The position numbers were made by a program, and so were the translations under genes. This document shows positions 22,796-33,437 of a stretch of DNA of 64,000 bases, in pieces. The stretch is from Ignavibacteria bacterium (GTDB lineage Bacteria; Bacteroidota; Ignavibacteria; Kapaibacteriales; Kapaibacteriaceae), in contig CP054181.1 in assembly GCA_015709655.1 (NCBI GenBank), positions 361,262 to 425,261 on the forward strand, read 5' to 3'. Under the pieces are notes generated by a model. The model saw nothing but the letters and a program-made list of their open reading frames with translations. It did no database searches and was not told the DNA's origin. Positions within the stretch are counted from its first letter, which is position 1. Every line of letters starts with the position of its first letter.

Positions 22796-25700
22796 ATGAA
22801 ACGCCAGGCCGCTACACCGCTGATCATAAAATTTATTGTTGGTGCTCTGCTGACAATGGCTCACGTCACGGGTGTAGACGCACAGTCCTTAACTGTTTTC
22901 AATGTGAATGCCGACAAGTTTCCCGTCATCACCGCAGATTACATCGCCTACGATGCCTCCGGCAATATTCTTACCGGGCTAAGGGCAGACCAGTTTCAGA
23001 TTATCGAGTCAACACAGTCCGGAACCACAGCAAATCTGTCGGCTACAATTTCAAACGACTGCTCAACCACAAAAACTCAAACAGAAGTCAGTATCATGAT
23101 CATCCTGGATCGTTCACAGTCAATGCGGGACGATGTAAATGGAACGATACGCTTTAAGTATGCACAACAGGCTCTTGCGGCCTTCGTAAACAAAATTCGT
23201 TTTACGGGTGAAACCCGCGTTATGCTGACAACGTTTTCGGGTGATTTTGAAGTGTCGACGCCCTGGACAAATAATCCTCGGGTTATCCTCGACACCCTGA
23301 ATAAAATGGAACCTCAGTCATCCACCGACTACAGAAAACCATTCGAAGACCCTGGCAACAACATTTACGAACTCTTCAAGCAGCGCCCGCCGTCACTGCC
23401 ACGCTACGTTTTCTTTTTAACTGACGGTCACCCGAATCCCGTCATCGAAGATGAAAATAAGTTTATCACCCAGAATATTCCTATACTACGTTCCAGCGGG
23501 ATTCGCTTTTACAGCGTGACCCTAATGGAACGGAATACTCACGCTACCATTGCGGCTTTCGCAAGTGCAACCGGCGGAAAGTCCATTGTTGCCAAAGAAA
23601 CTGAACTCATTGATTTATTCAGCTACCTCGCTCTGGAGACTCAGTCAACAGAAACGTGTACCTTGTCATGGGTAAGCCCGGTTGTGTGCAAAGCAGAAGA
23701 CAGAAACAGAACCGCAACAATCACATTAAAAACGTACGGTTCCCCTACCGCTGAAGCAACCTATACAACGCCCCCAGAAAGCGTTGGCGGCACACTCATC
23801 AACTTCCCAGTGCTGTTCTGCGGAAATCCCGACACCGGTCGAACGTCACAGGCTGACGTTGTAGTCCAGGCTACCGGGGTGCCGCTAACCGTAACAGGTT
23901 ATACTATCGATCCGGATACCTACTTTTCTGTTGCTGACTGGGGACGCGGCACGGGGAGCATTTTTACACCCTTTACCTTAAAACCCGGCGAGAAAACTTC
24001 AATACGGGTCAGATTTACACAAGGATCACAACAGGTATTCAGGCAAGCCCGGCTCTCATTGCTCGGAACCCCGTGCCCGCCAAATATCGAACTGGTAGGC
24101 GGACAAGGGTTTGTTATGCTTAACCACCCCATCGGCGGCGAAGTATTTTCGGCATGCGATACAATCACGATAAGCTGGAGCGGTGTACTCCCAACAACAC
24201 CTGTTCGGTTAGAGTACAGCAGTAACAGCGGAAACAGCTGGGAGATGATTACCAATGATGCCACCAATCTAACATATCGTTGGCTGCCTCCTCAGCCTGG
24301 AAATACATACCGTATTCGGGTCTCTGTAGCTCCACTGTACGAATGGGCTTACCAGTATGGCGGAACAGGCTCGGAGGTTGCTTCTTCAATCGCTGTTTCA
24401 CCCGATGACAATGCGGTTTTCGTTACCGGATGGTTCGAAGGTCAGGCTAAATTCGGTACTACCACGCTTAATTCTACACCCAATAACATCGATGGCTTCC
24501 TTTGTAGGCTCGATACCCTTGGCGTGGTACAAAAACTCATGCACCTTATGGGGATTAGTGTCAGTAACGATCAAATCACGGGATGCGTAACCGATGCTGA
24601 TGGCAATGTGTACGTTACCGGATTCTATACCAATCCAAGAGCCGAATTCAACCGTGACCCGATATTCTATTCCTCCGAGTTTAAATCAAATATGTTTATT
24701 TATAAACTCGACAGGAACTTAAATATCGTCTGGAAACGTGCTGGCAGCGGGTATAACGAAACGCTTGCTTCACCCGACACCGTTAATGCTAATACCACTG
24801 GAATTGGTATCCGATACAATTCCGGTGGTAAACCCGAGATTCTCGTCACGGGTACATTCTCACGATACCTACGGGTGGGCACAAAGGACAACGGATTGCC
24901 CGCTGCCAGCAACCCATACTACCTTGAACCCAATGATATTCGGAATTACTATGCCATCTATGATGAAAGGGGCTTTGCCACCTTTAACGAAGGACTTCCG
25001 CCTGATGGTTTTGTAATGCAGGCTATGGAAGCAACGGATAGCAAGGGTAATATTTACCAGGCGGGAACATTCTACAACACAAAACGCTTTAGTCCACCAC
25101 CCAAAAATCTTACTGCTTCAGGCAAAACTGATGTCTTTGCGTCGAAGTATGCCTCAATCCATGCAAATTCAGCACGCTCAGACAGCGATTTTACCATACA
25201 AATGCCCGAGCTTTCATTCCAGACAGATACGGTGATCATGGACCCAACACCACATGGTGCATCTTCTGCTAAATCGTTTAGTTCTATACTGTGCAATACC
25301 GGCATATATACCGTAGAGATCGTAACAACACAAATCCGCGGGACCGATTCTGCACAATTCGTACTCCAAAGCCGGCTCGAGAACATACGCCTGCAGCCAG
25401 GTGAATGCGTGTCGGTTGAACTGGTCTACACTCCCGGAGGAATACGGCATGAGGAAGCCTTCCTTGAAATCACGGGATCGTGTAACACGCATGCAACCCT
25501 ATTCGTCAGCGCAGACGGAATTGCACCATGCAAGTGGGAATCAGTGCCTACGGTGTTGCTGGGAGGCATCGCTGCTGGTATCAGCGCACGTACATTTTCG
25601 GTTGCCAATGTTCTGTGCAACAACGGACCTGTTCCCCTTAGCGGAACTGTTACTGCATCCGGCTCCGATAACATGTCGATTACAAAGGGTGGTGGTCCCT

Positions 25701-27502
25701 TTGTGCTCAAACCCTCGCAATGTCTGAGTTTGGAGATTTCGGTAAACCCGCTAACGATTGGACAGCAGACGTTAACCGTACAGTACGGATTGCCCCCCGA
25801 ATGCGAAACCCCGGTAACGACGCTGTCAGTCGATGTTGTGGAACCCAGGCTCTCAATTACGAATGTTGACTTCGGCAGACATCGTGTTGGTAATGTTATT
25901 TATGACAGCATTTTTATTCGTAACCTTGCAACACAGCCGGCATTGATAATGGCAATTACGCCGGAGTCTCCGGCAAGCCCCAACATTGCCTATATTATTG
26001 ACGGCGTTTCGCTCCCTATTGAGTTGCAACCCGGTGAACAGCGCAGTATAGCAGTGCGGTTCTCACCGCAGGAACGTGGACTACATACTACAGTTCTTAA
26101 TGTCACCGTAACCGGCCAAACAGCCCCGCTAACCTCGAATGCCACTGGCTATGGCTTTTTACCCGCAATCAGTGCAACTGGCTATGACTTCCCGGCAGTC
26201 ACCGTGGGCAGCACAGCACGTCCAAATGGCTTCGTTGTCATCAGCAATACCGATACCTCAAGCCCCTTAACACTCTTTGCCATACACCTTGAAGGACTGG
26301 TACCGGACTTCACGGCAATTAACTGGCCTACGTTTCCGCTTACCCTGCCACCGGGTGAAAAACTCCATTTGGAAGTATCGTTTACGGCACAGGCACCCGG
26401 AGGACGTCGTGATACCGTAATCATCGAGCATGATGCCAAGCCGGGTCCCGAGCCAATAACGCCGTACGCTCAAACCGCTGTTGCTGTAACAGGTGTAGGA
26501 TTTGATAAAAGCAGTCTGGCACCTATCGATTTCCAGTCTGTTTTCTCGTGTCGGGATTCATCGCAAAGTTTAACAATTACCAACCCACATCCAACCGATA
26601 CGCTATATTGCTTGATGCCGGTTTTGTCCGGTGATGTTCATGCCTTTTCTGTTACTCCCGGCGGACCATTCTGGCTTGCACCCGGTATGTCGCAGACAAT
26701 TACTGTCCGCTTTTCGCCTCCCGATGACGGAGTATATGCACTTTCGTGTCGCTACAACAACAATCAGAATCTGGACCTTGTTGTTAACGCCTTAGGCCGC
26801 GGCTTTAGCACATCAGCAACAGTAACCCCCGGCAATGGCAGCACCATTGTAGTCGGAACACCATTTACCGTTCCCGTTTACAGCAGCATGGGTTCAATGC
26901 ACGGCGTTCCGGTTACTGCAGTAGATATCACAGTCTCCTATCCTGCGGAGTTTCTGGGCTTTCGCTCTGTTGGTGAAACTCCGAACGGGTGGACGTTTGA
27001 TGTTACCAACGTAATACCCGGTTCGGTAACTCTTCACGGAACACCAACCAGTACAACCCTGGAGAACGGGCTTCTGTTGAATATCATTTTCGACCCGTAC
27101 ATCACAGCGCAGCGTGAACACGAAATTCGGGTTCTTGCCGACGTCACTCCGAACTGCGTTCACACCCAAGGCGGCGTCCACCGATACCGTGTTGATGCCA
27201 CCTGCTTTCCCGACGGCCGGATTATCACAGTTGCCGGCAGCCGGTTCTCGTTTTCGAATCCACAGCCAAACCCCGTACACCGGGGTACCATACTTCGTTA
27301 CAGCACCGGCATTACATGTTCATCCCGCTTTGTTATTACTGACAACATAGGGAACCAGGTGTTCGAAGTGCAAACTCCCATCCTGCCTCCGGGCGATCAC
27401 GAACTGACCCTTGACGTTTCGCACCTTGCAAACGGACATTACTTTCTTCGAATGGAAAGTGGTCCGTACAATGCAGTCCGGCCACTACTGATTGTCAGGT
27501 AA
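22796..27502 (+). CDS. Giant secreted vWA protein with choice-of-anchor repeats and T9SS tail (copy 2)
   Basis: A 1568-residue paralogue of the preceding gene with the same domain order throughout: signal peptide ending GVDAQ, vWA with MIDAS DRSQS and TDG (about 95-290), propeller-like repeats, HYDIN/choice-of-anchor-D domains (VDFGRHRVGNVIYDSIFIRN mirrors copy 1), cohesin-like domain, and T9SS tail (FSNPQPNPVHRGTILRYSTG to the end). The proteins align along their full length with few gaps, yet the DNA has clearly diverged, so the duplication is not recent. Likely exported by the type IX system. Function unknown. Confidence 0.85.
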   Translation: MKRQAATPLIIKFIVGALLTMAHVTGVDAQSLTVFNVNADKFPVITADYIAYDASGNILTGLRADQFQIIESTQSGTTANLSATISNDCSTTKTQTEVSIMIILDRSQSMRDDVNGTIRFKYAQQALAAFVNKIRFTGETRVMLTTFSGDFEVSTPWTNNPRVILDTLNKMEPQSSTDYRKPFEDPGNNIYELFKQRPPSLPRYVFFLTDGHPNPVIEDENKFITQNIPILRSSGIRFYSVTLMERNTHATIAAFASATGGKSIVAKETELIDLFSYLALETQSTETCTLSWVSPVVCKAEDRNRTATITLKTYGSPTAEATYTTPPESVGGTLINFPVLFCGNPDTGRTSQADVVVQATGVPLTVTGYTIDPDTYFSVADWGRGTGSIFTPFTLKPGEKTSIRVRFTQGSQQVFRQARLSLLGTPCPPNIELVGGQGFVMLNHPIGGEVFSACDTITISWSGVLPTTPVRLEYSSNSGNSWEMITNDATNLTYRWLPPQPGNTYRIRVSVAPLYEWAYQYGGTGSEVASSIAVSPDDNAVFVTGWFEGQAKFGTTTLNSTPNNIDGFLCRLDTLGVVQKLMHLMGISVSNDQITGCVTDADGNVYVTGFYTNPRAEFNRDPIFYSSEFKSNMFIYKLDRNLNIVWKRAGSGYNETLASPDTVNANTTGIGIRYNSGGKPEILVTGTFSRYLRVGTKDNGLPAASNPYYLEPNDIRNYYAIYDERGFATFNEGLPPDGFVMQAMEATDSKGNIYQAGTFYNTKRFSPPPKNLTASGKTDVFASKYASIHANSARSDSDFTIQMPELSFQTDTVIMDPTPHGASSAKSFSSILCNTGIYTVEIVTTQIRGTDSAQFVLQSRLENIRLQPGECVSVELVYTPGGIRHEEAFLEITGSCNTHATLFVSADGIAPCKWESVPTVLLGGIAAGISARTFSVANVLCNNGPVPLSGTVTASGSDNMSITKGGGPFVLKPSQCLSLEISVNPLTIGQQTLTVQYGLPPECETPVTTLSVDVVEPRLSITNVDFGRHRVGNVIYDSIFIRNLATQPALIMAITPESPASPNIAYIIDGVSLPIELQPGEQRSIAVRFSPQERGLHTTVLNVTVTGQTAPLTSNATGYGFLPAISATGYDFPAVTVGSTARPNGFVVISNTDTSSPLTLFAIHLEGLVPDFTAINWPTFPLTLPPGEKLHLEVSFTAQAPGGRRDTVIIEHDAKPGPEPITPYAQTAVAVTGVGFDKSSLAPIDFQSVFSCRDSSQSLTITNPHPTDTLYCLMPVLSGDVHAFSVTPGGPFWLAPGMSQTITVRFSPPDDGVYALSCRYNNNQNLDLVVNALGRGFSTSATVTPGNGSTIVVGTPFTVPVYSSMGSMHGVPVTAVDITVSYPAEFLGFRSVGETPNGWTFDVTNVIPGSVTLHGTPTSTTLENGLLLNIIFDPYITAQREHEIRVLADVTPNCVHTQGGVHRYRVDATCFPDGRIITVAGSRFSFSNPQPNPVHRGTILRYSTGITCSSRFVITDNIGNQVFEVQTPILPPGDHELTLDVSHLANGHYFLRMESGPYNAVRPLLIVR

Positions 27503-31468: not shown

Positions 31469-32500
31469 ATGCACCCAATGAATAGGCAAAATCACCTTTG
31501 GTATGTAACGGGACTTTTTTTGGCTCTGTTCTGTACTGCACTGTCTGTTCCCGCTCTTGCCATCCCCGTAATAATAGAGTTTCAACCAATATTCTGGCAA
31601 GACTCAGCAGAGACTGACAAGCAGTTCAACCTTCCTGACGGTGAAACCCGCAGACCGGATGGAAATCGCTTTGCCACTATTCAACGTTTTGAATTTTACA
31701 CGTCAGACTATTCGATAACAACATCGGATGGGAATACTGTTGCCGTGCCATTGTCAACAATCCTGTTTAACCTGTCAAAACAAACAAGATATTATCTTGC
31801 TGACCTTAACATCACTGAACAAATCAGGAGCATAACGTTCGGCATCGGCGTTCCTGCCGGCCGGAACCACCTCGATCCGTCAACCTATCCGCCTGGCCAC
31901 CCGCTGGCACACCAGAACCCTTCAATGCACTGGGGCTGGTCTGCGGGTTACCGGTTTATTGCCCTCGAAGGAACAGCATGGTCACAGGGCTCCGAAGAGA
32001 AGCATTTTGAAATTCATGCCGCCGGTGATGAGCTGTACCGCACTGTTACCATTGAACCATCAGTTGGCAAGTCTGGCGACACCGTAGTCCTTACGCTCAG
32101 TCTTCAGGTTCATCGTTTACTCAGGAATATTGCGGCTGAGCAAGGTATTATTAACCACAGCTCGGAAGGCGAAGCACGTACGATGGCAGAAAACATGGCA
32201 ACGATCGTTTGGGAGAAGCCATCAACTGAGTCAGTGCACGACGTGCCACCAATGCCACTGTTCCTGTGGCCAAACCCAACCCACGATGTTGTGGTGGTTG
32301 GCAGCGAGTTATGCGGGGACGTCGGTTCTAACGAAATCACACTCGTTATCACTGACATTGCAGGTATAATGCATGTACACCAGCCATATACGTGCGGAGC
32401 AGCTATTCCAATAGCAATGCTGCCCTGTGGTATGTACAATGTATCCTTGCACGCATCCGGCAGGCGAATGGCAAGTGGAACTGTCATCAAGGTGGAATAG
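31469..32500 (+). CDS. MbnP-family copper-binding protein with T9SS tail
   Basis: A 343-residue exported protein: signal peptide ending SVPALA, then an MbnP-family domain (about 30-245) with the family features IEFQPIFWQD..., RFEFYTSDYSI, LADLNITEQIRSITFGIGVPAGRNH and the tryptophan motif SMHWGWSAGYRFIALEG. The C-terminal ~80 residues (LFLWPNPTHDVVVVGSE to the end) are a T9SS sorting tail, implying delivery to or past the outer membrane. In methanotrophs, MbnP binds copper after its partner diheme enzyme MbnH oxidises a Trp to kynurenine. The matching MbnH gene follows directly, which strongly supports the call. Confidence 0.82.
   Translation: MHPMNRQNHLWYVTGLFLALFCTALSVPALAIPVIIEFQPIFWQDSAETDKQFNLPDGETRRPDGNRFATIQRFEFYTSDYSITTSDGNTVAVPLSTILFNLSKQTRYYLADLNITEQIRSITFGIGVPAGRNHLDPSTYPPGHPLAHQNPSMHWGWSAGYRFIALEGTAWSQGSEEKHFEIHAAGDELYRTVTIEPSVGKSGDTVVLTLSLQVHRLLRNIAAEQGIINHSSEGEARTMAENMATIVWEKPSTESVHDVPPMPLFLWPNPTHDVVVVGSELCGDVGSNEITLVITDIAGIMHVHQPYTCGAAIPIAMLPCGMYNVSLHASGRRMASGTVIKVE
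32489..32495 (+). promoter_or_regulatory. Shine-Dalgarno AAGGTGG deciding the MbnH start
   Basis: Lies 9 nt before GTG 32505 at the end of the mbnP gene, supporting that GTG over an ATG at 32427 inside mbnP. Confidence 0.5.
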
Positions 32501-32504
32501 TGCA

Positions 32505-33437
32505 GTGCGTACCGCCGGCGGTATATCACTTTTCTTATTAATTTCGGCCTGTGCACCGTTAACGCAGCCTGAAGATCCAATGCAGTATTTGCCGGTGATG
32601 ACGATACCAACCCTACGGCACCCACCTGATAACGAACCCACTCCGGAGCGGCTTGCGCTTGGAAAGCTGTTGTTCAACTCAACTCTTCTATCCGAAGGCA
32701 ACGATGTTAGCTGCGCCAGCTGCCACCTTGAGAACTTTGCCTTTGCCGATACAACCCCCGTAAGCCGCGGAACATTAGGCCGGGTCGGAACATCCAACTC
32801 TCCGTCTATTGTGTACGCAGCCTTCGAGCCCGGCTTACTCCGAGCGGCCACCGTCCCAACACTCGAAATGCACGTTCTGGTCCCGCTCCAGGAAGAAAAT
32901 GAGTTCCACATGAATATCCTGGACGTTGTTGACCGGTTCAATGCCAATCCCGATGTCCAGGCAATGAGCCTTGCTGCCTACGACCGACCCTTTGATCCAT
33001 GGGTGCTCACTCGGGCCATCTCGGTTTTTGTTCGAAGTCTGCCAGCGTTTAGTTCTAAATTCGATGCAGCATACCAACAAAAGAACTTTTCCGAATTCAG
33101 CATGGCGGAAAGGCGGGGGATAAAGTTGTTTTACGGATCGGCAGGGTGCGTACAATGCCATTCTGATGCACTCTTCACCAATCACCTGGTGTTCTCGGGA
33201 CCTCCATCAGCAGCTCACCGTAACCGTATCCAGGCCAGAACAGATATTAAGGTGCCATCGTTACGGAATGTTGCGGTTAGCCCACCATATTTCCACGACG
33301 GGACAGCTGCTACACTGCATGCCGTTCTGCAGCAGTACAAAAACGGTGAGAGGTATTATGTACCGACACCAAAGCCCCTTTCCGACGCTGACATCAGGGA
33401 CATTGAGGCATTTTTAACTACACTCACCGATTTATAA
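32505..33437 (+). CDS. MbnH-like diheme cytochrome c peroxidase family lipoprotein
   Basis: A 310-residue member of the CcpA/MauG superfamily, which uses two c-type hemes. The two heme sites are CASCH (about residue 70) and CVQCH (about 205). A lipobox-like LISAC near residue 16 suggests membrane anchoring. Typical segments: NSPSIVYAAFEPGLL, MHVLVPLQEENEF, KVPSLRNVAVSPPYFHDGTAATL. GTG 32505 gives a short signal peptide directly after the mbnP stop and has an SD. Known MbnH enzymes convert a Trp of MbnP to kynurenine. The gene pair implies the same here. Confidence 0.85.
   Translation: MRTAGGISLFLLISACAPLTQPEDPMQYLPVMTIPTLRHPPDNEPTPERLALGKLLFNSTLLSEGNDVSCASCHLENFAFADTTPVSRGTLGRVGTSNSPSIVYAAFEPGLLRAATVPTLEMHVLVPLQEENEFHMNILDVVDRFNANPDVQAMSLAAYDRPFDPWVLTRAISVFVRSLPAFSSKFDAAYQQKNFSEFSMAERRGIKLFYGSAGCVQCHSDALFTNHLVFSGPPSAAHRNRIQARTDIKVPSLRNVAVSPPYFHDGTAATLHAVLQQYKNGERYYVPTPKPLSDADIRDIEAFLTTLTDL

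Follow-up and report, generated by a model that had tools for sequence, protein, structure and literature searches.

A T9SS-tailed MbnP subfamily of Bacteroidota with a di-heme enzyme clade of its own

Results and Discussion

MbnP proteins with an MHWGW motif and a T9SS tail form a subfamily that is spread through Bacteroidota and is accompanied by its own clade of di-heme enzymes, here called clade A. One such gene pair lies in a stretch of 64,000 nt from an Ignavibacteria bacterium (contig CP054181.1; the window). It is correct to describe 31469-33437 as a T9SS-tailed MbnP beside an MbnH-like enzyme, and the finding exceeds what the first-pass annotation of the window had claimed. Two-gene systems of this kind are widespread and little studied. 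The primary MbnP paper reportedly surveyed MbnP neighbourhoods. We found neither a T9SS-tailed MbnP nor a two-enzyme MbnH locus in the literature searched, and an earlier description may exist. With moderate confidence we propose that the window encodes a surface copper-binding MbnP and a dedicated clade A maturation enzyme that forms kynurenine from W155.

The gene pair

Both ORFs are intact on the + strand (MbnP, 31469-32500; di-heme protein, 32505-33437), and 4 bp separate the MbnP stop codon from the GTG start of the di-heme gene, which bears out the coordinates and gene arrangement of the annotation. Upstream of MbnP, at a distance of 23 bp, lies a cysteine-synthase-like gene; the downstream neighbour of the di-heme gene is convergent and, named by eye, SDR-like. 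In agreement with the annotation, none of the adjoining ORFs that were read is a methanobactin gene. The genome is a single contig of 2.84 Mb with one PF20243 match and three CCP_MauG matches. The features of MbnP are as follows.

31469..32500, + strand: MbnP-domain protein with T9SS tail, 343 aa (PF20243 88.7 bits; model matches 7l6g)
31469..31561, + strand: Sec signal peptide, residues 1-31, ending VPALA (sequence; helix 7-24 in the model; cleavage site inferred)
31568..32143, + strand: MbnP domain, Pfam span, residues 34-225 (PF20243)
31925..31939, + strand: MHWGW motif, M153, H154, W155 (expected kynurenine), G156 and W157 (alignment of 147 MbnP)
32015..32017, + strand: His183, near-invariant candidate copper ligand (146/147 MbnP; invariant in alignment A1)
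32156..32158, + strand: His230, candidate for an additional His ligand in tailed MbnP (88/88 tailed)
32255..32494, + strand: type A sorting tail of the T9SS at the C-terminus, residues 263-342 (model matches T9SS cargo tails; Por_Secre_tail 17.9 bits)

The MbnP domain and its candidate metal site

The MbnP of the window contains the sequence PSMHWGWSAGY and passed the Pfam cut-off for MbnP (27 bits), but did not reach the curated cut-off of the equivalog TIGR04052 (MbnP_like_WxW; 45 against 140 bits). Its AlphaFold2 model (pLDDT 88.8; 38 sequences) matched the MbnP of Methylosinus trichosporium (7l6g) with Z 15.9 at 3.4 Å over 202 residues, covering residues 30-255.

We aligned 147 MbnP sequences, comprising 88 tailed proteins, 55 untailed proteins and four references, where 'tailed' is a length criterion (>150 residues after the first Trp). 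W155 and W157 were present in all 147 and M153 in 138. The tryptophan motif named in the annotation is thus kept, the modifiable Trp maps to W155, and none of the family's residues W155, W157, M153 and H183 is missing from the window protein. H154 was found in 87/88 tailed and in 7/55 untailed proteins, and a PNP-like motif stood at the expected place in 84/88 tailed ones. The tailed proteins formed one side of a branch in the MbnP tree (46/105 rows, SH-aLRT 94).

MbnP binds copper, and the copper site of the solved protein consists of one His, one Met, a solvent ligand and kynurenine. Around position 230, where the tailed proteins have His, the 55 classical MbnP mostly have Met (Met only in 29, His only in 11, both in 10, neither in 5; counted over the segment because column 230 is aligned one off in many of them). 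According to the part of PMC3912023 seen, the copper site of CorA contains two His, water and Kyn62. From the conserved His230 and the two His of CorA, we infer a two-His copper site in tailed MbnP. Either of two Met positions could match the Met ligand of the solved protein.

The window protein thus resembles the M. trichosporium MbnP (7l6g; PF20243, TIGR04052) in its fold, WxW motif, first Trp, His183 equivalent and paired di-heme gene; it differs from it by the added T9SS tail, the His before the Trp, His230 and the low TIGR04052 score. At three loci (L126, L138 and L157) two or three tailed MbnP genes were present, some of them without a nearby di-heme gene of their own.

The T9SS tail

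The annotation had also assigned a T9SS sorting tail to MbnP. PF18962 matched at the right place with 17.9 bits, which is below the Pfam cut-off of 27, and the protein was not on the TIGR04183 list of the genome at E<=0.01. The model gave a clearer result: residues 263-342 matched 8glk_D, which is the tail of NucA as bound in the 8glk structure of the T9SS, with Z 10.9 at 2.0 Å over 75/75 residues, and the mirolase tail (8qb1) with Z 10.3. Generic Ig/FN3-like chains reached Z values of up to 9.0, and two further T9SS cargo tails (Z 8.6 and 8.1) fell inside this background. The genome encodes an SprA_N match, which represents a T9SS core gene, and has 123 T9SS-tail matches at E<=0.01. Judged by the modelled structure, the C-terminus of the window MbnP is a T9SS tail, in agreement with the annotation, and the protein would be located at the cell surface.

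Elsewhere in the window (22796-27502, + strand), a protein of 1568 aa combines a weak T9SS tail with a VWA domain and Ig repeats of the ASH/HYDIN type.

Spread of the tailed subfamily

PF20243 was detected in 96/395 sampled genomes of the phylum. The exact MHWGW..GY pattern was found at the DNA level in 13/395, a number that includes a genome with an untailed protein (G041, L054) and one, G249, that was not inspected. Among ten same-family genomes listed, eight had the pattern. A scan of genome contigs returned 427 stretches, all of which encoded relatives, and we studied the best 80. These came from, among others, Saprospiraceae, Flavobacteriales, Chitinophagales, Ignavibacteria and Kapaibacterium MAGs.

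Tailed MbnP loci also occurred in MAGs labelled Bradyrhizobiaceae (L107, JAGFIZ010000056.1), Candidatus Poseidoniaceae archaeon (L130) and Rhodospirillaceae (L178). These bins are likely mislabelled or contaminated.

Copper-type genes near related loci

The annotation had suggested copper handling. Among the best 80 of the 427 loci, 18 had an HMA protein, an HMA-AraC, an HMA-membrane protein, a heavy-metal P-type ATPase or a multicopper oxidase nearby, and 26 did when HYC_CC_PP proteins were counted; the neighbour clusters were named by NCBIfam from one example each, mostly under curated cut-offs. In 820 kb of related loci we counted 19 HMA-type ORFs, where ~1.1 would be expected given 286 HMA matches in 61 genomes (207 Mb); this enrichment is a guide only, since the loci are in part related to one another and the genomes used as background were not matched by taxon. 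None of the ORFs adjoining the window pair is a copper gene. HMA matched ten times and COX2 twice elsewhere in the genome. The copper link stands for related loci, where HMA-type genes are enriched, but is not repeated next to the pair itself.

It is highly improbable, in our view, that the secreted MbnP binds a metal other than copper or that its site serves redox sensing. Such a function would fit a site that differs from that of the solved MbnP by the His before the Trp and the His at 230, and the P-type ATPase neighbour tested at a related locus scored above cut-off as a heavy-metal and cadmium-family pump, not as a copper pump. However, CopZ-like HMA proteins and a CueO-like oxidase, each scoring below its curated cut-off, also occur beside related loci, and CorA, a solved protein of the same general kind, binds copper (PMC3912023, seen in part).

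In the same partly seen source, MopE and CorA are described as exported or surface copper proteins with kynurenine and two His. The MopE/SACCP and CorA/CorB systems of methanotrophs would share with the window pair an exported or surface copper protein accompanied by a di-heme gene, and the combination of two His with kynurenine. The closest functional parallel of the window protein appears to be surface-located MopE/CorA rather than the methanobactin-linked MbnP. Neither MopE nor CorA was among the sequence or fold matches listed for the window MbnP. Neither of them is known to be a T9SS cargo.

The di-heme enzyme of the window

The di-heme gene and its product have the following features.

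32490..32495, + strand: Shine-Dalgarno-like AGGTGG, 9 nt upstream of the GTG at 32505 (sequence)
32505..33437, + strand: clade A di-heme MbnH-like lipoprotein, 310 aa, GTG start (CCP_MauG; Foldseek best match MbnH 6e1c; clade A support 100/100)
32550..32552, + strand: lipobox Cys16, LISAC (sequence; lipobox pattern)
32712..32726, + strand: heme motif 1, CASCH, C70-H74 (sequence)
32841..32843, + strand: Arg113, replacing the inter-heme Trp (MauG W93) (alignment to MauG)
33147..33161, + strand: heme motif 2, CVQCH, C215-H219 (sequence)
33336..33338, + strand: Tyr278, equivalent of the MauG axial ligand Y294 (alignment to MauG; invariant in alignment A3)

The GTG start, the two CxxCH motifs and the lipoprotein character proposed in the annotation were all borne out, the last by an in-frame lipobox (LISAC16) at the end of an N-terminal signal. 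CCP_MauG (PF03150) gave 121.8 bits and passed its cut-off of 25.6. The protein has the features of the MbnH/MauG type, i.e. two heme motifs (H74, H219) and the axial Tyr278. The axial Met of canonical bCcP (CcpA), which both bCcP references have, is absent, which argues against an assignment to another CcpA/MauG branch. In the model (pLDDT 82.3), the closest Foldseek match was MbnH (6e1c); by VIA Z score MbnH was tied with bCcPs (25.9 to 25.1), and 6e1c had the highest identity among the VIA rows (34%).

The enzyme did not reach the curated cut-off of the MbnH equivalog TIGR04039 (151.9 against 362.85 bits), and the alignment to MauG placed Arg113 at the position of the missing inter-heme Trp. 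On its sequence, it is MbnH-like but not a standard MbnH. With MbnH (6e1c; TIGR04039) it shares the di-heme fold, the axial Tyr and a gene adjoining MbnP; it differs by the Arg, the separate clade and the score. With MauG it shares the axial Tyr, the Ca-site Asn and the equivalents of E113 and P107, whereas W93 is replaced by Arg, Q103 by His (as in three relatives), and substrate and clade differ. The MbnH of the annotation is therefore an MbnH-like di-heme partner from a clade apart, and since this clade lacks the inter-heme Trp, the kynurenine formation that the annotation describes for methanotrophs cannot simply be carried over to it. Formation of kynurenine by this enzyme is a plausible prediction.

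As told in PMC6405878, which was seen in part, work on MauG ties the inter-heme Trp to bis-Fe(IV) stabilization and Trp oxidation. BthA of Burkholderia is, like the window enzyme, a Tyr-ligated di-heme enzyme without the inter-heme Trp; it has Ser there, not Arg, and still forms bis-Fe(IV). It is a peroxidase, and the part of PMC6405878 seen does not mention an MbnP partner. An enzyme with Arg at this position may thus well have activity, but which reaction it carries out cannot be taken for granted.

Two enzyme groups beside tailed MbnP

The 80 loci contained 84 MbnP ORFs, of which 54 had two di-heme ORFs after them, 22 had one and eight had none. In trees, the di-heme partners of tailed MbnP split into clade A, which includes the window enzyme, and a second group (group B). 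Clade A comprised 37/90 rows with SH-aLRT 100 and consisted of the window enzyme and other tailed-locus enzymes only. It was recovered in a second tree (19/56 rows, 100/98) and in a third with 12 untailed-locus enzymes included (22/60 rows, 100/100). Since clade A holds only partners of tailed MbnP, it appears to be a dedicated partner. Group B grouped with classical Bacteroidota MbnH, and its unity was less well supported (71/97 and 61/92 in two trees).

Twelve of the 55 untailed-locus enzymes scored best to the clade A profile; as clade A members they were rejected, because they fell outside the clade in the tree (100/100).

We assigned the enzymes at 79 tailed-MbnP loci (75 of the 80 scan loci and four fetched earlier) by their best-scoring profile. 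The gene order was AB at 49 loci and BA at seven, while 18 had A only and five B only; both enzymes were thus present at 56/79, and the window has clade A only. Some of the single-enzyme loci are cut by contig ends. Clade A supplied the only di-heme ORF of the locus, where over 1.5 kb was available downstream, at L107, L119, L139, L148, L149, L170, L174, L175, L177 and L053, and by the same room criterion group B stood alone at L126, L158 and L164.

The two groups differ at the position of MauG W93, where Trp was present in 61/61 group B enzymes and in 0/75 clade A enzymes including that of the window. The 74 clade A relatives have Arg (68), Phe (2) or Ser, Thr, Lys or Met (1 each). The 55 classical partners have Trp (45), Tyr (5), Leu (2), Ala (2) or Arg (1), so that loss of the Trp is not unique to clade A, but its universal loss is. 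A second nearby Trp was found in 60/61 group B enzymes and is Tyr or Phe in clade A. Both CxxCH motifs with their heme His, the axial Tyr and the equivalents of E113 and P107 were kept in 74/74 clade A relatives. The Ca-site position (MauG N66) was Asn in 75/75 clade A enzymes and Gln in 55/61 of group B.

A same-genus genome (G377) has both enzymes, whereas another, G228, and the window have clade A only. This suggests that group B was lost in the lineage of the window. We regard it as improbable that the pair is a decaying remnant, drifting after group B disappeared from the window and its sister. The window enzyme and its sister do sit on long branches in the trees, His occupies the Q103 position, the window enzyme no longer has the EGG stretch that follows the Arg, and G377 retains both enzymes. 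However, window and sister (L035/L107) each have two intact genes, and the heme, axial and MbnP metal-site residues are kept.

A proposed maturation pathway

According to the reading that we prefer, MbnP would enter the periplasm via Sec and fold there. The clade A lipoprotein, located at the periplasmic side of the outer membrane, would oxidize W155 to kynurenine, and a copper(I) site would be completed with His183 and probably His230; M153 and H154 are close to the Trp in sequence. The T9SS would then move the folded protein over the outer membrane by its tail. The gene pair, the Trp and His residues, the tail, the T9SS core gene, the clade A identity, the loss of the inter-heme Trp and the heme and axial Tyr residues are supported by sequence or model, whereas kynurenine formation, copper binding, this order of events, the surface location and a role in copper acquisition are predicted.

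Several observations speak against this reading: clade A lacks the inter-heme Trp that MauG work ties to Trp oxidation as well as a second nearby Trp, the window enzyme has His at the Q103 position and sits on a long branch, and no copper gene adjoins the pair. Kynurenine may also be formed by an enzyme other than clade A, because 56/79 tailed loci keep a Trp-bearing group B enzyme too. We consider it rather unlikely that clade A is an accessory enzyme (for a different modification, electron transfer or as a helper of group B) that forms no kynurenine, with group B lost here and W155 matured in trans by an orphan enzyme or not at all. The presence of the inter-heme Trp throughout group B and in 0/74 clade A relatives would fit such a division, and so would an MbnH-like gene without MbnP beside it at G000:C1 2239550-2240617 (= L056:3051-4118), between thyX-like and secA-like genes (named by eye). 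Its product has the inter-heme Trp and the axial Tyr and scored 241.5 bits with TIGR04039, against 151.9 for the window enzyme. However, orthologues of this orphan (56-66% identity) were present in 9/9 same-family relatives tested, including G082, in which MbnP was not found, and clade A alone recurs at several loci. We therefore rejected the orphan as a lost second enzyme acting in trans: it does not track MbnP, and we retain it as part of the alternative only.

A tentative further possibility joins both groups. In Bacteroidota, a two-enzyme line of Trp-bearing group B and Arg-bearing clade A would build exported kynurenine-copper proteins, with a MopE-like two-His site on an MbnP fold delivered to the cell surface by the T9SS; in the lineage of the window, the Trp-free enzyme would work alone, yielding kynurenine or a further modification of MHWGW.

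If our preferred reading of a dedicated kynurenine-forming enzyme holds, kynurenine-based copper sites reach secreted proteins of a major phylum that is not methanotrophic, and a post-translational oxidation is finished ahead of T9SS export of a folded protein. A single locus would then combine naturally matched di-heme enzymes that have and lack the inter-heme Trp, which would make the long-discussed need of a Trp relay for protein-Trp oxidation testable. The loss of this Trp, which is regarded as central to the enzyme family, makes clade A a good test case for how such copper sites are built.

Further arrangements of di-heme genes

At L045:3875-7671, an untailed MbnP with the motif HLHWGW and a group B type enzyme are followed back to back by a tailed MbnP and a clade A enzyme. 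This double pair is possibly the ancestral arrangement of the tandem. Four plasmid di-heme genes that follow MbnP (L187:3885-5045, L188:3960-5144, L189:3783-4952 and L190:3883-5034; 383-394 aa) carry the product name 'methanobactin export MATE transporter MbnM' in their records. The name looks wrong, since each of the products has two CxxCH motifs and groups near MbnH-like enzymes.
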